From a virus, in the IMG/VR virus record IMGVR_UViG_3300044904_000036, positions 1-32,372 of that record: DNA of 32,372 nt; one strand, 5' to 3'. How positions within the stretch are numbered: the first letter of the stretch is position 1; each line of letters begins with the position of its first letter. A program made the translations under genes and the position numbers. The notes below the pieces were generated by a model. The model saw nothing but the letters and a program-made list of their open reading frames with translations, did no database searches and was not told the origin of the DNA. Positions 2,017 through 31,877 of the stretch are shown piece after piece.

Positions 2017-2357
2017 CTAAGACAATCGCCATAATCTTGCTCTTAACCGCCTACGGCGCGTCAGGCTCAACGCAGGACGTTAATGCCATAGCAAACGCCA
2101 TATATCGCGCTGAAGGCGGTACAGCGACCGAATACCCTTATGGCATAAGAAGTATTGATACTCACGGCGATAAGGTTTATGCTCGTAAAATATGCCTGAA
2201 TAGTATTAGAAACGCTGAAAAACGCTGGATTAAGGCAGGTAAACCGGAAGATTTTATCGTATTTATAGGGCGCAGATATTCGCCGCCAAACATAAACCCA
2301 AACTGGGTTAAATTAGTAAAATATTTTATAAAAAAGGAAGGAAACACAAAAAAATGA
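2013..2357 (+). CDS. Secreted lysozyme/transglycosylase-like protein
   Basis: The 114-aa product has a short signal peptide (TKTIAIILLLTAYGASG). Its domain resembles small lytic-transglycosylase folds. The motif AIYRAEGG places a likely catalytic Glu at residue 34, and later segments (PYGIRSI, RNAEKRWIKAG, DFIVFIGRRYSPP) match small phage muramidase-like proteins. It probably acts on peptidoglycan in the periplasm. It lies in the early operon, away from the holin-like genes, so a role other than final lysis is possible. ATGA overlaps link it to both neighbours. Confidence 0.6.
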   Translation: MTKTIAIILLLTAYGASGSTQDVNAIANAIYRAEGGTATEYPYGIRSIDTHGDKVYARKICLNSIRNAEKRWIKAGKPEDFIVFIGRRYSPPNINPNWVKLVKYFIKKEGNTKK

Positions 2358-2902
2358 AAATTGAAATCACATTAACAGAGGCAACTTTAGGAACTTTGGC
2401 CGGTAATCCGGAAATAGCCAAAGAGTTTATTATGAGCAAACACCCAGACGGAATCCAGCAAGACGAACTCCATGCAGAGACCCCAGAGGGAGATTTAGCA
2501 AAAGCCTGCACAATCTTCCCGCGGGAAAATGGTAAACCGTTCATCTGGGACTATCAAATCAAAGGCTTTTTTAAGGAAGCCTGTATTGCAATGATTGAAA
2601 CGGACACAATCACGCAGGAAGAACTTAAGGCAGTAAGATTAACTAAGTATCTGTTCAAACGAACTATCGACAGGAAGATACACGAAAACTGGAACGCTGA
2701 ATTGTCCGGCGAGATATGCTGGTGTGAACGGCCTCTACGCGGTATGACTATGCAGGGCGAAAGAATATCAATGGCCAGAAGTGAAGAAATTCCCGCGGGC
2801 AGTAAGTTTTCTTTTGAGATTATCTGTATGAATAAAAAGCTATTGCCATATATAATGGTTGACTTACGGCGCACTCATTGGTCAAGCAATGGCGTAGTTT
2901 AG
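2354..2902 (+). CDS. Conserved early phage protein, function unknown
   Basis: This 182-aa protein has features of a phage family I recall without an assigned function: an N-terminal beta strand (MKIEITLTEATLGTLAG), FPRENGKPFIWDYQIKGFFK at about residues 55-74, CERPLRGMTMQGERISMARS and PAGSKFSFEI. The last pattern recalls strand motifs of RAMP-fold proteins, but this is weak. Relatives, as I recall them, end in a Gly-rich segment containing QWRNSG; here the end is a shorter WSSNGVV, so the C-terminus may be altered. Residues 104-116 are encoded by a 41-bp sequence repeated exactly in the internal virion protein gene at 24223-24263. The start overlaps the previous gene by ATGA. Confidence 0.6.
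   Translation: MKIEITLTEATLGTLAGNPEIAKEFIMSKHPDGIQQDELHAETPEGDLAKACTIFPRENGKPFIWDYQIKGFFKEACIAMIETDTITQEELKAVRLTKYLFKRTIDRKIHENWNAELSGEICWCERPLRGMTMQGERISMARSEEIPAGSKFSFEIICMNKKLLPYIMVDLRRTHWSSNGVV
2662..2702 (+). repeat. 41-bp exact repeat, copy 1
   Basis: These 41 bases are identical to the reverse complement of 24223-24263. The bases flanking the match differ on both sides. Here they encode TIDRKIHENWNAE in the unknown early gene. The other copy encodes the same residues in the same frame in an internal virion protein. The two genes show no other similarity that I can see. Confidence 0.9.
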
Positions 2903-2937
2903 GATTAAATAAATGATGTTTAAAATAAGGAGTTACA

Positions 2938-3161: not shown

Positions 3162-3190
3162 TTGACAAGCAAAATCAAGTATGATTTAAT
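3162..3190 (+). promoter_or_regulatory. Rightward sigma70-type promoter
   Basis: TTGACA (3162-3167) is a perfect -35, followed by a 17-bp spacer and TTTAAT (3185-3190), a five-of-six -10. It lies in the 110-bp gap before the repeat-protein gene. Transcription would start near 3197 and give a short leader with the SD AAAGGA (3210-3215). Confidence 0.6.
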
Positions 3191-3221
3191 GGCTACAGTT
3201 AAGAAAGAGAAAGGATTAAAA

Positions 3222-4031
3222 ATGTGTCAATTTTTTAGTTTAGTATCAGATGGAAAAGGTAAAGTATTTTACTTCGATTGGAAGTTACGGCAGAAATGCT
3301 TATCGGGCGAGTTAAAATATGAACCCGATAGCCATACTTCTATTGCCGATTATTATGGATACAAGGCTGACAAGGAGGATAAACTAAACAAATACGAGTA
3401 TAACTTCTTGACTGGCAATTTCGCAATAGACCAATTAAACACTACGGATGATTCTGGAAAAGTCAAAAAGATATGCAAAAAAATTAACTCCAAAAAGATT
3501 GTTCCGCAACTTATCGTAAAAGTTATTCTTGACCCATTTAAAGACAAGAACACAGAAAAAGTAACTGACAGGGATTTACAACTACTTAAAGTTTGGGCCA
3601 GCGTTAGGGCCAGCGTTAGGGACAACGTTGGGGCCAGCGTTGGGGCCAGCGTTTGGGACAGCATTGGGGACAACGTTAGGGCCAGCGTTGGGGACAGCGT
3701 TAGGGCCAGCGTTTGGGACAGCGTTTGGGACAACGTTTGGGACAACGTTTGGGCCAGCGTTAGGGACAGCGTTAGGGACAGCGTTGGGGCCAGCGTTAGG
3801 GACAGCGTTAGGGCCAGCGTTGGGGCCAGCGTTTGGGACAGCGTTGGGGACAACGTTGGGGCTTATATTTCTTCATTTTTTAAAATAAAATACAAATTTG
3901 ATTTCTCTTCTGGTGTAAAACTTTGGAAAAAAGGGCTTGTACCGTCTTTTGACGGAACGACTTGGCGATTACACGGCAAGGACGGAAAGATATTAAAAGA
4001 AATAACCAAAGAAGAATTGGACAAAATATGA
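3222..4031 (+). CDS. Protein with 22 tandem four-residue repeats
   Basis: The best start is ATG 3222, six bases after the SD AAAGGA. A TTG at 3162 is part of the promoter -35. The 269-aa product has a conserved-looking N-terminal domain ([20 protein letters not shown], then [12 protein letters not shown]). Residues 125-212 follow as 22 units of [W/R/G]-[A/D]-[S/N]-V, then a C-terminal domain ending [20 protein letters not shown]. The repeat period suggests a regular solenoid or helical surface, but no known repeat family fits exactly. Its stop overlaps the next ATG (ATGA). The N-terminal domain recurs in phage proteins of unknown role, as I recall. Confidence 0.8.
3594..3857 (+). repeat. Tandem 12-bp coding repeat, 22 units
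   Basis: The unit is [T/A/G]GG-G[C/A]C-A[G/A]C-GTT, repeated 22 times without a frameshift, with one ATT in place of GTT. Variation is confined to three positions, and AAC occurs only after GAC. The array leaves other frames open on both strands, so the long ORFs over it in other frames are artefacts of the repeat. Confidence 0.95.
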
Positions 4032-6928: not shown

Positions 6929-7348
6929 ATGATATATCCCGTAAAAACAGTATTTGGCAAGAAGCCGACTTTTGAAAAGCCAATAGATGAAATACTGGCA
7001 GAGTGTAAATTAGAAGGTGCAATCCAGATATTAAGTCCTTTGGAATTTATTACAGACCGTCAAAGAAAATGGTATAAAGGTGTATGCTTGCCGTTTCTCG
7101 CAAAGAATGATGAAAACCAAGAAACAGAAATTTGGTGGGATACTGAAGTTAAAAAATTATGTGGCGGTCTTGCTTATCTGAAAAAAGAAATATTTTTCCT
7201 TGATGATGGACAATCGGTAGGCCGACTAACTACAAAAGACGTAGGCAAAAAGAAAATGATAAAGTTTATTAACGAGATAATTGCCAAATCGGTAGAAAAA
7301 GGATGGGGATTGGCTGCCCCAGACAAAGAATTAAGAGGCATAGAATGA
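6929..7348 (+). CDS. Possible NinB-like recombination protein
   Basis: This 139-aa protein starts at ATG 6929, behind the SD AAGGA (6916-6920). Its centre (EFITDRQRKWYKGVCLPFLA, then TEIWWDTEVKKLCGG) and end (GWGLAAPDKELRGIE) resemble small phage proteins of the NinB/Orf type, which help load recombinases onto ssDNA. Context supports this, with the nuclease and SSB-like genes just upstream and NinG further downstream. The family assignment is tentative because key residues are not diagnostic by eye. Confidence 0.45.
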   Translation: MIYPVKTVFGKKPTFEKPIDEILAECKLEGAIQILSPLEFITDRQRKWYKGVCLPFLAKNDENQETEIWWDTEVKKLCGGLAYLKKEIFFLDDGQSVGRLTTKDVGKKKMIKFINEIIAKSVEKGWGLAAPDKELRGIE

Positions 7349-11158: not shown

Positions 11159-11530
11159 ATGAGAGAAATAAAATTTAGGCAACCAAGATTCGATAGTAAT
11201 GGCAAGTTTACAGATTGGTTTTATTGGGGATTTATAAATGGCGGATTTGTTTCTCCTATTCGATTTGATGTACCAAATTATCAGTTTACCGGCCTAAAAG
11301 ACAAGAACGGCAAAGAGATATACGAGGGGGATATTATAAATGTTTATTTTGGCGACCCGCCTTCTACTCTTACGGCTAAAGCTGAAATAATTTATGAACA
11401 ATCCAAATGCAGATTTATTCCCCAACGATTAGAGGATAAATGGAATGGCTGGACTATCAAATCAGACTATATTAAAGTTATCGGTAATATTTACGAAAAT
11501 CCAGAACTTTTAAAAGGTGAGATATGCTAA
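11159..11530 (+). CDS. YopX family protein
   Basis: The 123-aa product fits the YopX family, widespread in phages and of unknown function. It starts REIKFR, has the signature FTGLKDKNGKEIYEGDIINV at about residues 43-62, and ends with IKVIGNIYENPELL. The start is supported by AAAGGTGAA. The gene overlaps the protease gene by seven bases. Confidence 0.85.
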   Translation: MREIKFRQPRFDSNGKFTDWFYWGFINGGFVSPIRFDVPNYQFTGLKDKNGKEIYEGDIINVYFGDPPSTLTAKAEIIYEQSKCRFIPQRLEDKWNGWTIKSDYIKVIGNIYENPELLKGEIC

Positions 11531-12297
11531 TTGATAAAATCGTTAGAAAATACTCTTGGATTCCAGATTTGCCTGATGGTAGAGACTTACTCGGTCTATC
11601 GGAAAAACTGTTAATGTTAGCAAAACCTTTGCCGGATAAAGTTGATTTGAGAAAAGGTTGCTCGGCAATACAAGACCAGCTTTCATTAGGCTCTTGCACA
11701 GCGCAGGCGATTGTTTCAGTTCTTGAGTTTCTTGATAACAAAGACGGGAAATATATCGACCTATCAAGATTATTTCTGTACTACAACGAGCGATTAGCGG
11801 AAGGCAATGTTGATTCAGATTCAGGGGCTATGATACGAACAGGTATTAAATCTGTAAATAAAATTGGGGTATGCGATGAAAAACTATGGGTTTATGATAT
11901 TGTCAAGTTTAAAGAACCTCCAGCGACAAGATGTTTCAGCGATGCTGTGTTACATCGGTCAGTTGAATATCGCCGCCTATCGACAATTCACGAAATAAAA
12001 TCCGTTCTTGCCGCAGGCTTTCCGGTTGTTTTTGGTATGTCTGTCTATGAGTCTTTTGAATATAGCAAAACAGCTAAATCAGGGATTGTGCCGATGCCGA
12101 CAAAAGATGAGTCTATGCTCGGCGGCCATTGTGTTTATACAGCTGGTTACGACAACGACAAAAAGGATTTAATCTGTATGAACTCTTGGGGTAAGGACTG
12201 GGGCGATGCAGGGTCGTTCTATTTACCATACGAATATCTGCTGAATGGTTTGGCAGATGATTTTTGGATGATTTCAAAGATTAACTATAATGATTAG
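11524..12297 (+). CDS. Papain-like (C1A) cysteine protease
   Basis: This 257-aa protein has the papain (C1A) layout: VDLRKGCSAIQDQLSLGSC with nucleophile Cys58 and an oxyanion Gln at 50 or 52, His202 in GGHCVYTAGYD, and Asn220 in MNSWGKDWGDAGSFYLPYEY. There is no signal peptide and the prodomain is short, so it would act in the cytoplasm of the infected cell or be packaged. Papain-type proteases are uncommon in phage early operons. Targets could be host proteins or a virion precursor, and neither is shown by the sequence. Confidence 0.85.
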   Translation: MLIDKIVRKYSWIPDLPDGRDLLGLSEKLLMLAKPLPDKVDLRKGCSAIQDQLSLGSCTAQAIVSVLEFLDNKDGKYIDLSRLFLYYNERLAEGNVDSDSGAMIRTGIKSVNKIGVCDEKLWVYDIVKFKEPPATRCFSDAVLHRSVEYRRLSTIHEIKSVLAAGFPVVFGMSVYESFEYSKTAKSGIVPMPTKDESMLGGHCVYTAGYDNDKKDLICMNSWGKDWGDAGSFYLPYEYLLNGLADDFWMISKINYND

Positions 12298-14440: not shown

Positions 14441-14848
14441 TTATACCTCTTTCCTTTCTTCTGTGCTTCGATAATTTCCAAAATTAGGTTGTTTATTGAC
14501 AATCAAACAAGGTCTATCGTTCATCGCTTGTGTAAATTTTTCGTCTGTTCTTATGCTCTTTTCGAGAATACTGATAACCTTCTCATTCAACGCTTCAAGA
14601 CTTCTGACTAATTCCGCGCGTTCGGCTTTATGAATCTCATTTTGTTCATATAAAGCATTAACAAGATTTTCACGTTCTGATTTATGAACCATCCTCATAT
14701 CACTTAACTGCCTGAATAACATCAATACAGAAAACCCGCAAATGCCTAAAGCTCCGTATTCAACAAACGGATTGGTTATTGGGTCGATACTTGAGATTAC
14801 CCCTGTCATTATAAACGGTGTCAAAGCTAAAATTTTTAATCCTGTCAT
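14441..14848 (-). CDS. Membrane protein with coiled coil, holin/spanin candidate
   Basis: This 135-aa protein has two hydrophobic segments (residues 3-21 and about 29-46), then a long charged coiled coil (HKSERENLVNALYEQNEIHK onward to about residue 105) and a polar tail. Membrane anchor plus coiled coil is seen in inner-membrane spanins and in some phage holins. The SD AAGGAA is well placed. With the 89-aa and 25-aa membrane proteins it forms a probable lysis cassette. Confidence 0.5.
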   Translation of the reverse strand: MTGLKILALTPFIMTGVISSIDPITNPFVEYGALGICGFSVLMLFRQLSDMRMVHKSERENLVNALYEQNEIHKAERAELVRSLEALNEKVISILEKSIRTDEKFTQAMNDRPCLIVNKQPNFGNYRSTEERKEV

Positions 14849-15206: not shown

Positions 15207-16256
15207 TTAACTCTGTGCCGTTAAAATTCCGCCAACAAAAGTTAAAACCTTCGTACCTAATACTGTATCTACATAACTCACTGTTGCATTTATTCCTGCT
15301 GTTGCCCCTATCCTAAAGAGGGTGCCTGAAGAAATATCGCCGACAACGTCAAGTGGATACGCTGGCGCCGTTAGTTTTCCGATACTCAAATTGCCTTTAA
15401 GAACATTATTAACTCCATTTACTTCAAATAGTCCCCAACTTGTTAAAGTTCCACTTGTCGCACAAGCATCAATATACAAACCATAGACTGAAACTGGTCT
15501 TGTAGTGGTAATTCCGATATTTGTTGTTTTGGCATAAACTCCGCAAGCAAAACCATCAGTAGTAGAAGAATTATATGTTACAGGAAAAAGCCTTGCTTCA
15601 AACCAACCCCCATATGCAGAATAACTTGTCTTGCCAATAATTGATTTTCCTGTATAACCAAATGAAGCCTGAGTTTTTGCACCAAAAAGACTTACAACAG
15701 CGCTATTTTTACCTGAACCCCCATCAACATCAAGTTGATGTTCTGTCGAAAAACCAAGACCAGATATAGTAATATTTTTAGTGCCACTTGAGGCCGTCAA
15801 AACTGCATTAGAAACCACTCCGCCATATAATCCGTATTGAACTACGCTGTTTCCATAAGTTCCAATGGTATTAGTTAGTGTTACTTGTCCGCATTGAGTA
15901 GTTGACGGATTATTAAAATATAAATCTTGTGTTAAACCAGATAAAATTGCTGATGGCAATGGATTTGCCGCACTTGAAATAATCTCCTTAATGGCAAGAA
16001 AAGATGGTGCTATATTTGCTGTCTTATATGAAAATTTAGCACCGGATGTTACCCCAAAAGAATGACAACACATCGTCCCGAATTGCACATTTGACGATGT
16101 TGTTATATCCTGCGGTAAAGATAAGGTTAAATTCCTGCCTAAAATAACGCCAGTTCCAGAGGCAGACAGATTAACCTGATTAGTAGTCCCTGACAGGTCA
16201 TACTTTGTTAAGGTCGGCTCAAAAGCCGAACTGTCAATAATTGAGGTTAGAATCAT
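15207..16256 (-). CDS. Tail appendage/receptor-binding-type protein
   Basis: This 349-aa protein is Gly/Ser/Thr-rich. Its N-terminal motif (LTLSLPQDITTSSNVQFGTM) is shared with many phage tail and adhesin proteins, where it builds trimeric beta structures. It ends LDVVGDISSGTLFRIG and GTKVLTFVGGILTAQS, a typical C-terminal tail-fibre segment. It is probably a trimeric virion appendage or decoration. It overlaps the ATP-grasp gene by 23 bases, so the two are expressed together. Confidence 0.65.
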   Translation of the reverse strand: MILTSIIDSSAFEPTLTKYDLSGTTNQVNLSASGTGVILGRNLTLSLPQDITTSSNVQFGTMCCHSFGVTSGAKFSYKTANIAPSFLAIKEIISSAANPLPSAILSGLTQDLYFNNPSTTQCGQVTLTNTIGTYGNSVVQYGLYGGVVSNAVLTASSGTKNITISGLGFSTEHQLDVDGGSGKNSAVVSLFGAKTQASFGYTGKSIIGKTSYSAYGGWFEARLFPVTYNSSTTDGFACGVYAKTTNIGITTTRPVSVYGLYIDACATSGTLTSWGLFEVNGVNNVLKGNLSIGKLTAPAYPLDVVGDISSGTLFRIGATAGINATVSYVDTVLGTKVLTFVGGILTAQS

Positions 16257-17496
16257 AAAGTCCTATTTCTTCAAGGTCTAATAATCGTTCCTGAACGTCC
16301 TCTAAACAATCAGTCCTATATTGGATATTCGGAATTTTTAACTGTTTGGCGGTATCGTAAAGTCCATCCCATAAAGACTCCGGCGTATCGCCAGTCCCAA
16401 CCACTTCGCATATAATACCGTCATAACCGCTTGTATAAAACTTACCCTCAATTTCCATAACGTCCAGAGGAATACAGTTATCGTCCATACCTCTAACTGG
16501 TTTACCCTCTGTTTCAGGTGCTTCCTCAACCATAGGATAAGGCGGTATGCTTATTCTTAACGCGCCCAAAAACTCATCAGACGGCTGTAAATCAGGCATA
16601 ACGCCATTAGCAATAGAGGCTATGAATTCACCAAAGGGCATATTTAAACCCTGTATAAAGGCGTATATTGCGCTATAGCCCATTCTGGCAGTCCATTCAA
16701 GTATATAAGGAACACCGTCAGAGATTATACAGTTAATATCAAGTGCGCCTGAATACTTCTGTAGTTTAAGCCAGTTCTCTAACTTGCCAAAGGTTTCACC
16801 GTATAAATCAGGGCATAAATTAAACTTAACCGTAGAGGACATACAACCTGTATTCTTGCTCAAGTTGTCATTCATAAAGCGTTTAGTTTCAAGCGTATTG
16901 TTATATGAATTAGGTATAATCTGGCCGTTTACGCACCAGACTTCAGAACTTATTTCAATACCTTCTTTAACCTCTTGTAGAACGAAGTCTATTTTGCCTT
17001 TCCAGATACCTGAGAAGTTTTCAAGCATTTCAATCATATCTTCAGAGTCAGTAGATACATACGTTTCAATACCCTCTTTGTTATGCTCCGGTTTAAATAC
17101 GCAGGCGAAATCTTTTTCTTTAACCCATTTAATAGCTGATTCAAAGTCCTGAAAATCGTCCCATTCAGGGACGGCTATTCCTGCATTTTCAGCCACAGGC
17201 AAGCCAAAGGAACGGTCTAATTCCATCTTATCAGCTATGTCAGAACCGCCGAAAACAAGGAATTCCTGTTCTCTTAATTTATCAGCTTCCTTGCCTTTTT
17301 TTACCATATCAAATATTACGATAGTATCTTTATCAAGTCCCTTCCATCCATCTTTAACTCGTGGCAATATACCGTCATAGAGCTTTACTGCCTTTGGGTC
17401 TTCTATATACAGAGTAACTTCATTACCTTCATCGGCAAGTCTTTTGCCTAATCCGACTCCATCCCCCGTACAAGAAATAATCCTGAATTTAGCCAT
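16234..17496 (-). CDS. PurD-like ATP-grasp ligase
   Basis: This 420-aa protein (ATG 17496; SD AAGAGG eight bases upstream) has the three-part ATP-grasp plan of glycinamide ribonucleotide synthetase (PurD). An N-terminal Rossmann-like segment (FRIISCTGDGVGLGKRLA) is followed by the ATP-binding Lys in VFKPEHNKEG (about residue 135), LQEVKEGIEIS, and the metal/ATP site GALDINCIISDGVPYILEW with TARMGY (about 250-274). PurD proper has NxRxGDPE there, so the substrate probably differs. ATP-grasp enzymes join a carboxylate to an amine or thiol. It lies between virion genes, not metabolic genes, which is unusual. A virion or peptide modification role is inferred. Confidence 0.8.
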   Translation of the reverse strand: MAKFRIISCTGDGVGLGKRLADEGNEVTLYIEDPKAVKLYDGILPRVKDGWKGLDKDTIVIFDMVKKGKEADKLREQEFLVFGGSDIADKMELDRSFGLPVAENAGIAVPEWDDFQDFESAIKWVKEKDFACVFKPEHNKEGIETYVSTDSEDMIEMLENFSGIWKGKIDFVLQEVKEGIEISSEVWCVNGQIIPNSYNNTLETKRFMNDNLSKNTGCMSSTVKFNLCPDLYGETFGKLENWLKLQKYSGALDINCIISDGVPYILEWTARMGYSAIYAFIQGLNMPFGEFIASIANGVMPDLQPSDEFLGALRISIPPYPMVEEAPETEGKPVRGMDDNCIPLDVMEIEGKFYTSGYDGIICEVVGTGDTPESLWDGLYDTAKQLKIPNIQYRTDCLEDVQERLLDLEEIGLYDSNLNY

Positions 17497-17523
17497 TGAC
17501 AAAGCCTCTTGATATGGTATAAT
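17496..17523 (+). promoter_or_regulatory. Consensus extended -10 promoter for HNH gene
   Basis: TTGACA (17496-17501), a 16-bp spacer and TATAAT (17518-17523) are both perfect hexamers, and TGG before the -10 makes an extended -10 element. The promoter points right, against the late operon, and overlaps the start codon and SD of the ATP-grasp gene. Transcription would start near 17530. Confidence 0.85.
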
Positions 17524-21100: not shown

Positions 21101-22775
21101 CCCATTCACTACCGGAAGACTTATCGACATCGTAAATGTCTTGCAATTCATCATTTACCCTTGCCGTCCGAAGCCGTAACTCTGATTTTACGTTCTCATC
21201 TTCGGTTTCACCCATTTGCTTATCAAGGCTATATCTTTCAGTTTCAAGGTCTATTTGTTTGTGTTTTAAAATTATATCTTCTTCATCACTTAACATTCTT
21301 GGATTTTGTTTCCGGTCAGCTATAATATCGTCTGCTATTCTGGGGTTAGCCTCTATTTTTGCCATAGCATTAGAATAAGCTACTTTATCTGTCTTAGTAA
21401 ACTTTTCCTCTACTGGCGGCAAGCCAAATTCTGCTCTTTTTTGATTGGTAATTTCATTTTTAAGAGAAGTCATTTTTAGTTTTTCAGGCGGTATCTCTTG
21501 CGGTTCATCTGTCTTTGCTGGTTTTGGCGTTCCCTCTGGCGGAACAACCTTATTAAGCATTTCCTCGCCAATTTTAATGGCTTGGTCAGGAGTAGTTTCT
21601 GCTTGTCCAGTTTCAGGGGCAACATTGGTAGGGGTCTTAGCTTTGCTCTCGTCCTGCGCAATCGTAGGCGGTTCTTCAGGGAGTATATCCGATTTAGTCA
21701 ATCCCTGTATAACTTTAGGGTCTGATACAGTATCAATAATCTGTTGGTCTGGAATTTTGGCAAGTTCAGGTTCAAGGGTTTTTAAGTGGTTTATATCCTC
21801 TTTTTGTCGTTCACCGCCGAGTAAGCCCATAACACCCATTATTACGGCCTGTTTAGTGGCCTGTTTCTTATCCTGCGTTTCAGCGTAAGTCTGGCCGTAA
21901 GCCGCGCCACCGTAAAGAACAGCCTTATCCATAGCAGTCTTAACAAAGGGTATTGCGTCTAAAGCCTTAAAACCAACGCCAGTGGCAACGCCTTTTAAAA
22001 ACTCTTTGCCGTATTGACCGCCCAGACTTTCTTCACTGGCTAATTGTGCGTCTGTCGGGACGTGTGCTATACTTGCAAGTCCCATACCTAAAGGCAAATC
22101 ACCGCCAGCCAAAGCAGTCGTTAAACCTATTTTGGCCAGTCCGCCAACCGCACCGCCCGCCGCCTGTGTCCAGTTGGGATTTTCCTGATTATAAATCTGT
22201 GCCGCTTTTATAGCTGCTCTTGTTTCAGGGTCAACGATATGCTTGAGTAAATCAGTTCCGTTAAGTGCCGCTTGGTCTGTGGCAAGCCAAAACTGATTAA
22301 ACTTAGTATTAAGAACAGAATCATTTTTCATTCTAAACAGATAATCGCTTACCTTTTGCTGTTCAGTGTTAACAGGCGGAACCCATTTCATTTCGGGTGA
22401 ACCGGGCGCGCCAATAGCTTGCATAGAATCATAATTAGTTCTATGTAAGTCATTTATTGCGGTCTTAAATTCATCTGGTTTATTTCCGATATAAGTTCCA
22501 TAAAGTTTTTCAGCAGTTTCAACGTGAGGTAAAGGAACATTGTATTTAGTAGCCGCTTCGAAAATCTTATGTGCTTTTTGGTCTAATTCGATAGGATTAT
22601 ACTTAGCGGGATTCGTAAATTCAAAAGGCGTAAGATTTAATTGTGGAACATCCGGCGTGCCTTCCTGTGATTGTGGTTTAGGTGAAGTGCCAATTAGTTC
22701 ATCACTTTGCCCAAAACTCGTTTTTTGAGTAGTATCTAAAACTCCAACAGATTCATCGTTTTGTCCGAAGGTCAT
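18138..22775 (-). CDS. Large polyvalent/internal virion protein
   Basis: This 1545-aa protein is the largest gene and lies where T7-like phages encode their big ejection protein. The N-terminus has a duplicated motif (FGQNDESVG, then FGQSDELIG). Next come helical segments, a Gly/Ala-rich hydrophobic stretch at about 205-240, and a central region (GSRNRLFTKERADIARAEIR, then LNVGIDPTAILRAGEYAGYL) typical of large polyvalent protein-associated domains. Long charged coiled coils follow, and a C-terminal part (VKKVAFNHVKQTINAAVGFY) also resembles such domains. No lytic transglycosylase Glu motif is obvious. It is probably ejected with the DNA. It overlaps its upstream neighbour by ATGA. Confidence 0.7.
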   Translation of the reverse strand: MTFGQNDESVGVLDTTQKTSFGQSDELIGTSPKPQSQEGTPDVPQLNLTPFEFTNPAKYNPIELDQKAHKIFEAATKYNVPLPHVETAEKLYGTYIGNKPDEFKTAINDLHRTNYDSMQAIGAPGSPEMKWVPPVNTEQQKVSDYLFRMKNDSVLNTKFNQFWLATDQAALNGTDLLKHIVDPETRAAIKAAQIYNQENPNWTQAAGGAVGGLAKIGLTTALAGGDLPLGMGLASIAHVPTDAQLASEESLGGQYGKEFLKGVATGVGFKALDAIPFVKTAMDKAVLYGGAAYGQTYAETQDKKQATKQAVIMGVMGLLGGERQKEDINHLKTLEPELAKIPDQQIIDTVSDPKVIQGLTKSDILPEEPPTIAQDESKAKTPTNVAPETGQAETTPDQAIKIGEEMLNKVVPPEGTPKPAKTDEPQEIPPEKLKMTSLKNEITNQKRAEFGLPPVEEKFTKTDKVAYSNAMAKIEANPRIADDIIADRKQNPRMLSDEEDIILKHKQIDLETERYSLDKQMGETEDENVKSELRLRTARVNDELQDIYDVDKSSGSEWGLAGRMRQQFMSESHDPIRMEQRARAKKESPLTEDERKTIKEQSDRLAELDNQLKEFQKAKTLESIAPTVKLPPDRTRPSFGSRNRLFTKERADIARAEIRKMMTRLNVGIDPTAILRAGEYAGYLFEGGVREIGAWSKAMIEDLGEWVKPNLSKIWGDIQSKVSKSDIEAAKTKIATGIESGKELSEIGIQIQNLARGLIESGVRGAKPLRDEVHTILREIIPDITRQETEDAISGSGKFRLAKRSEVEDELRDIKQQLQQTAKIRHYKEGEPAPATGYQRVPLTEEGMKMTKLAEEAKKRHGVETTDKETQLKSALDSRKTYYKNQITDIEDQIKSGHKTIKGVSVPQTDAELEGLIKKRNELKGQYDDIFGKPELTDEQRLSRAIKAAERNEANWTKRLEDAKNGIFEKTEQPDDMPKSDKLEAIKARTEALKEEHQELKDLANPKKTPEEIRLQSWKTRKTNRMAELRDKIARGDFEKKQPREPVKLDVEGEKIQADINRVENEYKKKLRQYELDKRPWWEKTLDLLSNVRKMGAISGIRTLVKLFSYTAGKIPQTIAEEAVGGVYSNLPGYSKLFKGAPREGGFNVKAIANALSSAFTKGLRDAYKVGSDKQPDYKMLYDEYSKTATARRWYNMAAVVHEIEKSPLRRFEYELSKEKRTEHAIMNSDNPDVPLNPVVQALIGKDAFEDSNAALLLEKNKLTDIVNNIEKQFEAKDKATGKTPLWGKVAATAIRLNIPVKKVAFNHVKQTINAAVGFYTGNIKFATAMVKGLDTLSPAQKDAIAKLLKVGAVAEIGNVLAFIDGYKNDAKHRHLGGYYQPGEKRDEEDVRWGGARLFGIKIPAVLLALPLIQSWQLHETIGRVASHEIKGEKQGITAGVVAAVIGLFQSAPIVNEGRTVSDLADPRKRDQAAGQYLKGLVDPMLIQDIANYTDIKPTGTLGGAILNPSENVTQRKPKGLKENIESGIPVLRKNVPEKGNAIRW

Positions 22776-24445
22776 TTCTTCCTCTTGATTTCGTTAGATT
22801 CGTTAATCCATATCGAATTTGAAGGTAGTTTATTGTATTCTGCTTCCGTTTTTGGGTAAGCAGTTTTCGGGTCTAAAATACTGCCGTCAGGAAAAACAAG
22901 TTTAGAGTCTGGTTCTGCTTGTATAAAATATCTAACCATTTGTTCCTTGCTATGTTGTTGCAGATTAAAAGACGAAGCGTGAAAATCCCATTTTTTGCCT
23001 TCTTGTTTCCATTCACCACCTATTTGTCCTTCTTTGCTATATTTACTATCAGTCGAAAAAGTTATATGATTAGGTAGTTTGTATTCGTCAGTGTAATGAC
23101 CTCTTTCGTCTGGTTTTACGCCTGCGGCTTGCGCGCCTGCCATATCATAATCTGGTTGTTCTGTCTTGGGAACAGGTTGCGTAGAATTTCTCAACTGCAT
23201 AGACTTTTTATACATATCCTCTTTTGACGGTGGGTTATCCTGTTTGTCCACCCATTCAACTAATGCCTGATTGACAGTTTTGGAATCTTCTGATTCTTTA
23301 CCACTCTCCCACCAACCGTGATAATTAGCTTTATTATCCTCAAGAGTGGCCTGTAATTCAGTAGCTAAAGCTTTTGGATATTTATTATCCAACTTGTCAA
23401 TAGCCCATTTAAAGTCCTTATCTGAAATACTACTGTTTTTGCCGTATCTTAAATCATAAATCTGTCTATACGCTTCGTTCTTATTCATTTCAGCATCATC
23501 ATTCGAGTATTTGGTTATTACCCCAACAAGACTACTATATCCCTGCGATGTGGTTGCAGTATTGAAATCCTTAGCCTGTGAGTTTTTCAACCATCCTGCC
23601 ATTTGAGTTTTTTCTGTAGTGCCTAAGCCGAGCCTGCCTATGTCATCAGGCATCATATCATTATTTCTTAATTTTTCAGAAGTGTTCTTATAGTCCTGAC
23701 CGTCTTTGTCAAATTTGACAGAGCCAGCCTTTTTATTAAGTCTATCAAAGTGAGCCGATACAGTTCTTTCGGCACTATCTTTTATTTTATCTGTAACAGC
23801 AGATGCCTCTATGGAATTAAGAGCTTCTTCTTTGGTCTTGAAACTTTCAGCCATAGAAACAGTCTTTCGGTAATCTATTTCCCCTTTGGCTCTTTGCAAG
23901 TCAAATTCGGCCTCATCAGGATTTATCAAACCTGTATGAATTGCAAGACCTGTATATTTTTCTGCTGCTGAATAATTTTCAAGATTTATAGCACTTTCAA
24001 GATTAGTCTTGTAATCAAACTTTGCAGAGGTTATTTTCATTTCTCTGTCTAATCCGTTAAAATGAACATCCCAACTCGGCTCATAACTGTCAAGGTTTAT
24101 CTTCGCCGCTTTAATTACATTAGACCTTTTTGAGGATAAAGCAATCTGCTGTCTGTCCTGCATAGCTTTTTCGTGAAGTTTAACTCTTGCCTCTGGGTCT
24201 TGAGTAGTTTGCAAAGTAGAATATTCAGCGTTCCAGTTTTCGTGTATCTTCCTGTCGATAGTTGACAGTTCAGAAGCGTCTTGAGCATTTCTGATGTTAT
24301 CTTCTACGCTCCTTATTGCACCGCCTAAATTTATTAAGCCTCTGGAAATATCTTCACCGCCGGTAGAAGTGTCGAGATGCGCTCTCGGATTAACACCCCT
24401 GCCTGAAGGGGTCATTTGATTATATTGGATTGGAAATTGTGCCAT
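22772..24445 (-). CDS. Internal virion protein
   Basis: This 557-aa protein is largely helical and polar. It starts MAQFPIQYNQMTPSGRGVNP and then GLINLGGAIRSVEDNIRNAQ, a pattern typical of phage ejection or internal-core proteins upstream of the very large core protein. Residues 62-74 (TIDRKIHENWNAE) are encoded by the 41-bp repeat shared with the early gene at 2354-2902. The C-terminal 150 residues are richer in Tyr, Pro and Trp. No enzyme motif is seen. The function is assigned by position and composition. Confidence 0.65.
   Translation of the reverse strand: MAQFPIQYNQMTPSGRGVNPRAHLDTSTGGEDISRGLINLGGAIRSVEDNIRNAQDASELSTIDRKIHENWNAEYSTLQTTQDPEARVKLHEKAMQDRQQIALSSKRSNVIKAAKINLDSYEPSWDVHFNGLDREMKITSAKFDYKTNLESAINLENYSAAEKYTGLAIHTGLINPDEAEFDLQRAKGEIDYRKTVSMAESFKTKEEALNSIEASAVTDKIKDSAERTVSAHFDRLNKKAGSVKFDKDGQDYKNTSEKLRNNDMMPDDIGRLGLGTTEKTQMAGWLKNSQAKDFNTATTSQGYSSLVGVITKYSNDDAEMNKNEAYRQIYDLRYGKNSSISDKDFKWAIDKLDNKYPKALATELQATLEDNKANYHGWWESGKESEDSKTVNQALVEWVDKQDNPPSKEDMYKKSMQLRNSTQPVPKTEQPDYDMAGAQAAGVKPDERGHYTDEYKLPNHITFSTDSKYSKEGQIGGEWKQEGKKWDFHASSFNLQQHSKEQMVRYFIQAEPDSKLVFPDGSILDPKTAYPKTEAEYNKLPSNSIWINESNEIKRKK
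24223..24263 (-). repeat. 41-bp exact repeat, copy 2
   Basis: This is the reverse complement of 2662-2702, identical over all 41 bases. It encodes residues 62-74 of the internal virion protein in the same reading frame as the other copy. The helical, polar setting here looks natural, so the direction of transfer cannot be told from the sequence alone. Confidence 0.9.
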
Positions 24446-27623: not shown

Positions 27624-28799
27624 TTACCTTCCAGTCTTTTCTATTCTTGCTATAATCGCCCTTACTGTACACGGCGTAGGGTCATCACCTGAAATTATAA
27701 TAGGTGCTTCAATATCGAAACCACCGTCCAATACAACGACTTTATCACCAGAGAATAATACTGGCGGACTGTCGTAATCTTCAATACTGCGCCAGTCTAT
27801 ATCGAATAATTCACTATCACTTGCACCATATTTAGCATTTAATGTTTTTAAGAAACTTATTACCAGTTCCGGTATCTTTTTAATTGAGCCGTGTGTCGTT
27901 CCGCCCGCACTTGATATATCTATTCTATTCGGTTGCAACTTATAGGTGTATGGTAATCCTATCGCCACTTTTGACGCCGGTTGCGAGATTGTTATCTGCC
28001 CGCCAACAACGACTTGCTCTGTGAATACTGCACCATCGGCAAGTATTTTAACTGTCTCTCCGTTAAGATGGTCTAAACCCGTAAAGGTCGTTGCCGGAAC
28101 ACCATCATATTTAATCCCGCAATCTACGAAATAACAATCTGCCTGCGTTGCGAAGTATCTCGGCTGCATTTGTTCTATATAAGAATAATTACCCGTGTTT
28201 AATGTTCGGGTTACATTTAACCAGATTTCATCTTCTGTCGTTGACGGTATAATGCAAATACTATTTACTGTGCCCGCCATAGGGTGTCTTGACGCAGCAA
28301 TTACATTTTGTTCACGGTTATAAGTCAATGAGAATAAATCACCATTGTTAAGAACACACCATAAAATTGACTCTGGATTTCTTTGATAGGCATATTCTTT
28401 AATACCGCCAAGACTAATATGTTCGCATAGCGTCAATAAATCCGGTGCGGTATATTTTTGTTCATTACTGTTATAAACTATCTCCCTGATTTTACGACCA
28501 ACGAAGTCAACAAATAAAATAGAATTATTGACAACGACTGGTTGCATATCACCACTGCCGTATGAACATTGCAGTTTTACAGAAAAATTTGTTGCAGTTA
28601 ATGGCAGGTCGAGTTTGGTAGAACCTATTCGCCATTCATCACCAGACGTACCGATAAGCAACGACTCAATTGCACCCACCCACTTTGCGTCATTAGTAGA
28701 TGGTATGGTAAGTGAGAACGAATCAGAGTCATTTACGTCTTCCGCAAAATCTTCGTAATCGTCAGTATGACTCAACCAAACTGTAAGTTCTTTTGCCAT
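27624..28799 (-). CDS. Tail nozzle (gp12-like), C-terminal half
   Basis: This 391-aa protein matches the C-terminal half of T7 gp12-type nozzle (tail tubular B) proteins. It starts KELTVWLSHTDDYEDF, where full-length proteins have a W-S-x-T-x-DYENF segment. Then come WVGAIESLLIGTSGDEWRI, NSILFVDFVGRKIREIVYN, DLLTLCEHI and YQRNPESILWCVLNNGDL, all characteristic of that half. Its ATG is one base after the stop of the N-terminal half, in another frame, with a poor SD. The two probably assemble into one nozzle, or depend on coupling or frameshifting. Confidence 0.75.
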   Translation of the reverse strand: MAKELTVWLSHTDDYEDFAEDVNDSDSFSLTIPSTNDAKWVGAIESLLIGTSGDEWRIGSTKLDLPLTATNFSVKLQCSYGSGDMQPVVVNNSILFVDFVGRKIREIVYNSNEQKYTAPDLLTLCEHISLGGIKEYAYQRNPESILWCVLNNGDLFSLTYNREQNVIAASRHPMAGTVNSICIIPSTTEDEIWLNVTRTLNTGNYSYIEQMQPRYFATQADCYFVDCGIKYDGVPATTFTGLDHLNGETVKILADGAVFTEQVVVGGQITISQPASKVAIGLPYTYKLQPNRIDISSAGGTTHGSIKKIPELVISFLKTLNAKYGASDSELFDIDWRSIEDYDSPPVLFSGDKVVVLDGGFDIEAPIIISGDDPTPCTVRAIIARIEKTGR

Positions 28800-28800
28800 T

Positions 28801-29970
28801 TTATGTGTAATATACCTGTACTGGAATAGTTGCCATTCCGCCGTAAATACATCTATTCTCGAAAAATGTTACAGAAGTAGGATAACCCTGCACATTAGAC
28901 CATGCGCCTTCCGCCCATCTTCGAGTAACTTTAACTCCTTCTGTGGTATCCAATTTTGCAATAACCTCCACGGAAACTAATGATGCGCTTGTATATGAAG
29001 TTACCCTCACAATGCCGTCCATAGTTGTATTTCCTACTGTAATATCTGCCCTAACAGAACCAGATGCATGTGCTGTTACAGTCGCCCTATATTGAACATT
29101 ATCAGAATTTTCAGTTTTAGTCAGGGCTATATTATTATCACCGTCCACACATACGACAGTCCGTACCGTTTCCCAATCTGAACCATTTTCGCATCTTTCT
29201 AAAATAATCGTGCCAGACCAAACCGCATGTGTTACAAATGTAAATGTTCCTTTAACATCTATTGCTGCACAAATAATTCCAGTATCAGTGCCATCAAGAG
29301 TATTTTCGCTAACAACTGTAGTTCTTTTGGTAGTAAGTTTATACAATGCACCAACATGTCCAGGTTGAAACGCCGAAACTGGAGTAATACCATCTGCCTT
29401 GCAACAAAGTAATGTTCCAGTTGAGCCAATAGTAGTAGTTCCGGTATATTTCATATACGCCGACAATGTAACATCTGGGTCTATAAGGTCGTTGCGGAGT
29501 AGGAACGGCCCCTTCTTAAATGGTATTTCATCCAATGAAAAAGTTATCGCTGATGTTCTCGTGAGTTTACTTTGCGGATAATCTGAATAAACTGTCCATT
29601 TGGTATCCGCTATTTGTTTGGTTTGCAGTTTCCATAAATCGGCAGTTGTATATGGTGTTGATATTTCGACTGGAACACCCCCGCTTGTAAGTATTTCTCC
29701 TTTATAATAAAATCGGGCGTATAGATTACCAAATTCTACTACATAGGCAATTTCAGATGAATAGATAAATGATATTAACCGTACGGCCACTGGACTTTGA
29801 TTGGCAACGTGAACAAACTTTGTTCCTGGCCTGCGTTCTACCCCGCCGTATATTGTAGGTATCATATTCTCCAGTGCAATACAACCGGACGAGTATTTTT
29901 CCGTATCAGACCGACAATCCGTTTTCGGTGTCGTCTCCCCATTATTAAATGATAAAATCCCAATATCCAT
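28801..29970 (-). CDS. Tail nozzle (gp12-like), N-terminal half
   Basis: Starting at ATG 29970, just after the upstream stop, gives 389 residues. The N-terminus (GCIALENMIPTIYGGVERRP, then GTKFVHVA, then VRLISFIYSSEIAYVVEFGN) is the signature of gp12-type nozzle proteins. The end (GYPTSVTFFENRCIYGGMA, then TIPVQVYYT) stops exactly where intact relatives continue into the next ORF. A 150-residue beta-rich insertion (about 180-340) resembles an Ig-like module. Without a fused C-half it is shorter than the usual single gene. Confidence 0.75.
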   Translation of the reverse strand: MDIGILSFNNGETTPKTDCRSDTEKYSSGCIALENMIPTIYGGVERRPGTKFVHVANQSPVAVRLISFIYSSEIAYVVEFGNLYARFYYKGEILTSGGVPVEISTPYTTADLWKLQTKQIADTKWTVYSDYPQSKLTRTSAITFSLDEIPFKKGPFLLRNDLIDPDVTLSAYMKYTGTTTIGSTGTLLCCKADGITPVSAFQPGHVGALYKLTTKRTTVVSENTLDGTDTGIICAAIDVKGTFTFVTHAVWSGTIILERCENGSDWETVRTVVCVDGDNNIALTKTENSDNVQYRATVTAHASGSVRADITVGNTTMDGIVRVTSYTSASLVSVEVIAKLDTTEGVKVTRRWAEGAWSNVQGYPTSVTFFENRCIYGGMATIPVQVYYT

Positions 29971-29971
29971 A

Positions 29972-30328
29972 TTATTCAGTAAAAGTAAATGTTTGCGGTG
30001 AAACATTACCTCCTATAGATTCGTTGATTATAGTAGTATGCCCCTGTGCAATAAGTGTATCTATTTTAGTTTCAATACTTGTTAAATCTACAGTTATCCC
30101 AGTATTAACTGTTGGTTGGTATTGCCCGCCAGCGATTATAGTCGTCCCTTCTTTTACTATCACAAAATCACTGGCAATTATATTGGCGTCAGATGCAGCG
30201 TAGTAACCAGTTGTCCCAACTTCCGGCAATGATGTTCCCGCAGCAGTACGAACCGTACCATCTGGCTGATAAACGCCATAAGTTAAAGTTGCACCAGTCG
30301 AATAACCCAGGGTTATCTCGTAAGACAT
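29972..30328 (-). CDS. Small virion-associated beta protein
   Basis: This 118-aa protein has a beta-sandwich-like N-terminal domain (YEITLGYSTGATLTYGVYQP, then PEVGTTGYYAASDANI, then DFVIVKEGTTIIAGGQY) and a short helical or coiled tail (DLTSIETKIDTLIAQG). Such modules are attached to phage tail or head proteins as adaptors. The assignment is by position and fold impression. Confidence 0.55.
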   Translation of the reverse strand: MSYEITLGYSTGATLTYGVYQPDGTVRTAAGTSLPEVGTTGYYAASDANIIASDFVIVKEGTTIIAGGQYQPTVNTGITVDLTSIETKIDTLIAQGHTTIINESIGGNVSPQTFTFTE

Positions 30329-30571: not shown

Positions 30572-31153
30572 TTAAGGTCTAATCTTTCCTGAACCATATC
30601 TTGCCAAGTTCCAGTCACTTCTACCACTTGTATTTTGTTCTTGTCTTGATATAACTCTTGCCCTTGCCGTTAATACTCTAAGTTCGCCACGAATATCCGC
30701 TAAGACATTAACCATATTAGTACCGGCCAAAGGATTGATAAACTTTAGAGCAAGATGTAGAACTAAAACTTCCACAAATAATGGGTCAAATTCAGTCGGG
30801 TCTATTACTCTTTTGATGTACTCAATCTGCATAGTAGTCTTATTTGTCAGAACCCTTTTACCCTCGATAGAGAAATGTTTATTTTCCTCTACTTCCACCA
30901 TTCTAAGATAGTCGTCAGGTAGAATAAATTGATGGTCATAATCAAAATCGGGGGTTGCAGTATCCTCACTCAAAGTTGCCCTTGCTTTTGCAAACGACCA
31001 CTCAAACGACCTCAATAGCGCATCCCTCGTTTGTTCATATTGAGTTCTTGCCTGTATTGCCTCTATAGATTTGTCAGTAGTTATATCATTTATCCGCTTA
31101 CTGCCAATTCGGGCAAATGCCATATTTACAATAATAGTTTCTGATATTGCCAT
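30572..31153 (-). CDS. Tail adaptor (gp11-like)
   Basis: This 193-aa protein is a gp11-type adaptor (tail tubular A), which links the portal to the nozzle. The signature is at the start (VNMAFARIGSKRINDITTD, then ARTQYEQTRDALLRSFEWSF followed by AKARATL), then FILPDDYLRMVEVE, FDPLFVEVLVLHLALKF and a C-terminal helical part. Length and order fit the family. A truncated paralogue lies just upstream at 31344-31877. The SD AAGGT precedes the ATG. Confidence 0.85.
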   Translation of the reverse strand: MAISETIIVNMAFARIGSKRINDITTDKSIEAIQARTQYEQTRDALLRSFEWSFAKARATLSEDTATPDFDYDHQFILPDDYLRMVEVEENKHFSIEGKRVLTNKTTMQIEYIKRVIDPTEFDPLFVEVLVLHLALKFINPLAGTNMVNVLADIRGELRVLTARARVISRQEQNTSGRSDWNLARYGSGKIRP

Positions 31154-31161
31154 AATTTACC

Positions 31162-31347
31162 TTAATCATGCCCGAAGGCAAGACGATAATTTTCCTGATA
31201 CTTTTTACTCGGCGGCATAGACATAATCTTAGTTTTGTAAGGCGGTTCGCCAAGACTGGTAGTATAACCCACTTTAGCATTTCGCCTTAAAACCTCATCT
31301 TTCAAGTCTTTTTCGTTCACATTATCAGGCACAAATTCGGTTTTCAT
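31162..31347 (-). CDS. Small basic protein between adaptor paralogues
   Basis: This 61-aa protein starts in an ATGA overlap with the XRE-fusion gene. The sequence (KTEFVPDNVNEKDLKDEVLR, GYTTSLGEPPYKTKIMSMPP) is polar and likely flexible. No family is recognised. Its place between two adaptor-like genes suggests a tail-assembly role (inference). Confidence 0.55.
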   Translation of the reverse strand: MKTEFVPDNVNEKDLKDEVLRRNAKVGYTTSLGEPPYKTKIMSMPPSKKYQENYRLAFGHD

Positions 31348-31877
31348 AAGAATAGTTTTTTAGGTCTAACTCCAAGCGCAGACGATATTACCCACAATAA
31401 TCTTAATTTAGGATTACGGGTATCATTCTCAATTGCTACCCAAGCATCAACAGATAAACCTGAAACTGATGCACACCCTTCAATAGTTAGTTTTTGCTGT
31501 TCCCGAATTTCTTTTATTCTTTCACCCAAAGTTGATGCCTTGCTTTCCTCGTCAACCAGAATCCAGTCAGCACTTGACAGGTCAGTTGCGAAAACATCCG
31601 AAGTATGTGCAACCAGACATTTATAAAGTAAAGAATTCGTCCATACATATTGACCGACAACATAATCAGTTGCAGTAAGCCAAGTTGATACAAGCAGAAA
31701 TCTTTTCTTTGCAAAGTTCCACTGGAAACTTCTTAATAAACTATCTCTCGTATGGACAAAGTGTAAATTAGCCTGAACGCCCTGAACCGGAGTTTGGTCG
31801 GCAAGAGTAAATTGCTTTGCACCGATTCTTCCGAGCGACATATTGGCAATATCTGTCTCTAATTGACTTAAACTCAT
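31344..31877 (-). CDS. Adaptor-like N-terminus fused to XRE helix-turn-helix
   Basis: This 177-aa protein has three parts. Residues 1-63 match the gp11 adaptor N-terminus (IANMSLGRIGAKQFTLADQ, then VHTRDSLLRSFQWNFAKKRF), as in the next-door adaptor. Residues 67-108 look like a small carbohydrate-binding (CBM5/12-like) module (YVVGQYVWTNSLLYKCLVAH, SSADWILV). Residues 117-177 are a Cro/C1-type helix-turn-helix (LGERIKEIREQQKLTI, then AWVAIENDTRNPKLRLLWVI, then ALGVRPKKLF). I know of no standard tail protein with this end. The frame is intact throughout. It may be a regulator built from a duplicated adaptor, or a DNA-contacting virion protein. Confidence 0.75.
   Translation of the reverse strand: MSLSQLETDIANMSLGRIGAKQFTLADQTPVQGVQANLHFVHTRDSLLRSFQWNFAKKRFLLVSTWLTATDYVVGQYVWTNSLLYKCLVAHTSDVFATDLSSADWILVDEESKASTLGERIKEIREQQKLTIEGCASVSGLSVDAWVAIENDTRNPKLRLLWVISSALGVRPKKLFL

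Follow-up and report, generated by a model that had tools for sequence, protein, structure and literature searches.

Templated mutations of phage T4, which arise by ectopic strand switching (Schultz, Carver and Drake 2006, reviewed in PMC3016281), involve the copying of a short tract from a non-allelic, imperfectly similar place; the strand then returns, and a clustered replacement is left. In yeast, template switching between short inverted repeats alters coding genes (PMC8604942): the two inverted arms end up identical, with several neighbouring amino acids altered at once. Ectopic templated replacement in phages is known mainly from T4 genetics.

The locus described here lies in IMG/VR record IMGVR_UViG_3300044904_000036, which consists of one contig of 32,372 bp and is referred to below as the window. 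Like the T4 mutations, it appears to hold a short tract copied from a non-allelic and imperfectly similar place, with return of the strand and a clustered replacement; unlike them, it is an evolutionary trace in an environmental phage, known from sequence alone, in which the two places are 21.5 kb apart and inverted. As in the yeast repeats, two inverted stretches appear to have become identical and several adjacent amino acids to have changed together. The yeast repeats, however, are short and near each other, whereas the stretches in the window are 41 bp long and belong to two genes separated by 21.5 kb; length appears to have been altered as well. We infer that the same mechanism acted in the window.

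The window is a podophage-like genome fragment with early genes on the plus strand; the minus strand carries a small terminase, tail tubular proteins, a gp14-like protein and two large late proteins. A tail tubular protein B-like gene (27624-30006, minus strand) is divided into two open reading frames (ORFs) by a frame change, reflecting either real decay or an indel error; its counterparts form one ORF in contigs L101 and G002 and two in G001 and L102. Tail tubular protein A-like genes occur as a tandem pair (30572-31877, minus strand), the second of which (31344-31877) has a helix-turn-helix domain at its end and a CBM_5_12-like stretch. Within ORF 3162-4031, a tandem repeat with a 12-bp period (3540-3909) codes for repeats of the SVRDSVGA type. 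The window also encodes a papain-family cysteine protease (11524-12297, plus strand) and an ATP-grasp protein (16234-17502, minus strand), which we judge to be unusual in a podophage-like genome.

An exact inverted match between an early gene and a virion gene

Bases 2662-2702 of the window are the exact reverse complement of bases 24223-24263 (41/41 nucleotides). The features that bear on this match are the following:

2354..2902, plus strand: early gene of a RAMP/Cas7-fold family, probable Vipr homologue and putative recipient of the patch, apparently decayed (87-homologue alignment, profile and fold)
2662..2702, plus strand: 41-bp copy in the early gene, with a native-like left part (TIDRKI codons) and a seemingly foreign right part (HENWNAE codons)
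2681..2702, plus strand: putative minimal transferred tract, 22 bp, CACGAAAACTGGAACGCTGAAT, which would replace the F..[PE]R segment (BLOSUM62 scores and F110 invariance)
2856..2882, plus strand: remnant of the C-terminus of the family (WLTYGALIG), shifted into a frame other than that of the ORF
2887..2904, plus strand: QWRSLG in a third frame, a possible but weak trace of the G-loop motif QWRNSGKGRF
22772..24445, minus strand: internal virion protein of 557 amino acids, T7 gp15-like by its position directly after the gp14-like gene, putative donor
24223..24263, minus strand: virion-gene copy of 41 bp, whose native register agrees with that of relatives

Each copy begins at the third position of a codon, and the two share one reading frame, (A) ACT ATC GAC AGG AAG ATA CAC GAA AAC TGG AAC GCT GAA (T), so that the peptide encoded by both is TIDRKIHENWNAE. 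Identity ends abruptly, and the DNA flanking either copy does not match. The longest other exact inverted repeat in the window measures 15 bp; the longest per genome is 13-19 bp in 300 genomes simulated under an order-2 Markov model and 13-17 bp in eleven other phage contigs or parts of contigs, with one exception of 28 bp. A chance origin of the 41-bp match was therefore rejected. The original prediction had reported this repeat, its common reading frame, its abrupt ends and a length incompatible with chance, and recomputation reproduced all four. Antisense pairing of the two mRNAs was also rejected: judging from the frames, both would carry the same sense sequence and would not be complementary.

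The 41-mer occurs in no other IMG/VR contig by exact search, from which records very near the window may have been left out. It was not found with up to 3 mismatches in six relatives, and a similarity search against phages and plasmids returned nothing or 19-bp chance matches.

Another phage contig, L007, contains an exact inverted repeat of 28 bp (6949-6976 and 14504-14531). Its copies lie close to the beginning of two small ORFs and, read in one common frame, both give YCDDMMIAEE; the ORFs may be paralogues, or the repeat may record a similar event.

The peptide against the two gene families

Homologues of the early gene were collected in a first round (15 sequences) and in an alignment-based scan (80 loci), and 87 distinct homologues were aligned; the peptide is absent from every one of them. 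The five nearest relatives (L021, L022, L023, L025 and L026) are 50-59% identical to the window protein and have in common with it a 7-residue insertion. At the site of the patch, where the window protein reads RLTKYLFKRTIDRKIHENWNAELSGEICWCERPL, relatives read, for example, RLTQYLYKKTIDRQVFISPRR or RLTLYLHKRTIDKQIFMAERF, and the five nearest follow the pattern KR/KK-T-[IV]-[DG]-x-x-[IV]-F-x-x-[PE]-R. The first alignments had placed the RKI of the patch on the PRKI of the family; this placement was rejected, as the nearer relatives match TIDRKI to the TID..I upstream.

The two parts of the peptide fare differently against these five relatives. TIDRKI attains a mean BLOSUM62 score of +18, which a fraction of 1e-4 (0.01%) of random window peptides equals, whereas HENWNAE scores -11.2 on average, a value reached by 80% of random window peptides. 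Since the relatives read TID..I and then F..[PE]R, the TIDRKI codons are, by alignment, native-like in the early gene, and the HENWNAE codons, which stand where the family has its conserved F..[PE]R segment, are foreign-looking there. All 39 aligned intact homologues have the phenylalanine of that segment, F110. Compared to the near relatives, the early gene is about 3-5 residues shorter at the patch, with the frame kept.

The virion protein was harder to place. Single-sequence searches, including tblastn in a phage collection and pattern searches, found no relatives of it, and scans of both proteins against Pfam and PHROGs at strict cut-offs gave nothing useful; the gene preceding it is gp14-like (phrog_418, E 9.5e-16). 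Four distant relatives, about 31-41% identical, were obtained from contigs G001, G002, G013 and G014, two of them from contigs that carry near relatives of the early gene and two from an alignment scan. None carries the peptide, and all four align across it ungapped. Three read E[YF]S[EG]LKRQVDE[RK]G[FY]AA and the fourth ELSQGQRQIEEKGFAL, where the window has ELSTIDRKIHENWNAEY; the family pattern under the peptide is [EGQ][LG][KQ]RQ[VI][DE]E[RK]G[FY]A, and R65, E69 and A73 are invariant in a three-sequence alignment. Both halves of the peptide score above random against this family (0.7% of random peptides for the left half and 6% for the right), the support for the right half being modest. 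Because of the ungapped register with its four relatives, the peptide reads as native in the virion protein.

A RAMP-fold family and its apparently decayed member

Phage-encoded RAMP proteins (Vipr) with GGYNN-repeat guide RNAs are the subject of a 2026 preprint (PMC13142463). In the PDB, a profile built from 39 intact early-gene homologues hits type VII Cas7 (E 9e-4). The AlphaFold2 (AF2) model of the intact relative L022 has a pLDDT of 82, and its best Foldseek matches are type VII Cas7 chains (E 6e-8); the AF2 model of the window protein is poor (pLDDT 53). The predicted fold of the family, as seen in its intact relatives, is thus RAMP/Cas7-like, and the family is probably of the Vipr kind. 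Relatives resemble Vipr and Cas7 RAMP proteins in their fold, in a glycine-rich loop, in being phage-encoded and, possibly, in having GGYNN-like repeats beside the gene. In 31 of 83 homologues an RGYNN array with at least 6 of 12 units follows the gene downstream on its own strand, and none of the 83 has one on the other strand, in a measure by which shuffled sequences quite often reach at least 6 units. In SUSP1, the example phage of the preprint, a 195-codon gene (28474-29061) has a perfect GGYNN array of 10 units next to it and is presumably the SUSP1 vipr; the end of this gene shows a weak resemblance to the early-gene family that falls short of proving membership (E 0.44). In G001 (L105-L107) and G002 (L108-L109) the early RAMP gene lies on the strand of the late genes; in the window the two are on opposite strands.

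The window copy differs from Vipr and Cas7 RAMP proteins: there is no GGYNN or RGYNN array near it, and it has no intact G-loop, the Vipr feature, this having been lost through an apparent frameshift. The conserved end QWRNSGKGRF, the G-loop motif, is missing from the ORF because the C-terminal motif runs on in a second and, weakly, in a third frame. The remnant WLTYGALIG scores 49 against L025, where the null maximum is 34; QWRSLG scores 26-29 against a null 95% quantile of 28. Either the early gene is in decay or the contig carries indel errors. The apparent loss of the C-terminal frame and of GKGRF fits relaxed constraint, and decay would account for the tolerance of a disruptive patch.

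Probable direction and mechanism of the proposed replacement

Ectopic templated replacement, from the virion gene to the early gene, is on the alignments a probable explanation of the 41-bp match, with some 22-41 bp of the virion gene copied in the opposite orientation. Direct support comes from the identity of the copies, from a right half that appears foreign in the early-gene family, and from the apparently native register of the peptide in the virion family. As in template switching, the acceptor holds sequence identical to that of a non-allelic donor, and the identity stops abruptly; a tract foreign to the acceptor family and native to the donor family is seen for the right half only, with modest support on the donor side. 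Copying would have been one-way, from virion to early gene, because the right half reads as native to the former and foreign to the latter.

We envisage the following course of events. During copying or repair of the early gene, one strand would have ended in the (TID)RKI codons, which by chance are similar in the two genes, and paired with their counterpart in the virion gene, 21.5 kb away and on the other strand. The virion gene would then have served as template for a minimum of 22 nucleotides (HENWNAE codons), and possibly for all 41, before the strand went back to the early gene near its E-L codons, perhaps guided by microhomology at this right end. In this way 22 bp would have taken the place of about 30-36 bp of the early gene, with the frame kept. 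The virion gene would be the unchanged donor, and the early gene the recipient that lost its conserved F..[PE]R segment.

The left part of the match fits this scheme: TID..I is native in the early-gene family, and R[KQ][IV] occurs in the virion family. TIDRKI may thus be independently native, or nearly so, in both families, and about half of the match may be chance similarity that preceded the event. This refines the earlier argument that convergence alone is unlikely, the reasoning of which holds. A perfect 19-bp left half arose by chance in 1 of 300 simulated genomes, and because such identity is rare, part of the left half was probably converted too. At the left switch point the two families offer the TID..I / R[KQ][IV] similarity; at the right one, a microhomology is presumed. 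Since no close patch-free strain was found, the pre-event sequence of the early gene was deduced from relatives at most 59% identical.

The origin of the window as a metagenomic IMG/VR contig, for which there is assembled sequence only, raises the question of an artefact, in which a chimeric library molecule (e.g. from whole-genome amplification) or a wrong gap fill put virion sequence into the early gene. Inverted chimeras are known to arise in amplification (PMC13265396), and signs of sequence errors may be seen in the apparent frameshifts of the early gene and in the split of the tail tubular protein B gene, although the latter gene is also split in relatives G001 and L102. A simple contig misjoin was rejected because early-family sequence remains collinear to the left and right of the patch. 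What would be needed instead is a double switch that came to dominate the coverage, with two junctions 41 bp apart, the frame kept and one junction placed at native similarity. We consider an artefact unlikely. Copying in the reverse direction, with the early gene as donor and the virion gene as recipient, would agree with TID suiting the early family better than the virion family; HENWNAE, however, is foreign to 87 of 87 early homologues, and the virion protein keeps the R, E and A of its family and aligns ungapped across the whole peptide, which makes this direction very improbable.

A diversity-generating retroelement has a reverse transcriptase together with template and variable repeats that differ at adenines. 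This possibility was rejected, as the copies are identical and no reverse transcriptase was matched among the window ORFs scanned. The identical frame in both genes could also point to a selected element, either a common binding peptide or a coding DNA site or inversion target, and crossover between the copies would, from their coordinates, give two in-frame fusions. Yet the repeat is in no relative of either gene and the 41-mer nowhere else in IMG/VR, the recipient looks broken and lacks the conserved F..[PE]R segment, both genes are whole in their present orientation with no inversion product seen, and neither a reverse transcriptase nor an invertase was recognised among the window ORFs scanned. 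Selection for a shared element is in our judgement extremely improbable. Among the explanations listed in the original prediction, templated transfer is thus favoured, now with a direction from virion to early gene, and a shared binding peptide is disfavoured.

Most likely, then, the 41-bp patch is the scar of a known kind of mutation, left by one event in a decaying gene, and not a functional element. Identical peptides in unrelated phage genes need not imply a shared function. The analysis also brought up a RAMP-fold phage family that probably belongs to the VIPR systems and may lie near GGYNN-like repeats; its member in the window appears decayed. It is a long shot, but conceivable, that Vipr/RAMP genes which no longer benefit a phage, or even harm it, are repeatedly inactivated and overwritten by microhomology-guided copying from other parts of the phage genome, in which case such scars would be common in environmental phages and would form a readable trace of ectopic strand switching. 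If real, the replacement would be a well-resolved natural case of long-distance ectopic templated replacement in a phage, to which donor, recipient and direction can be assigned.
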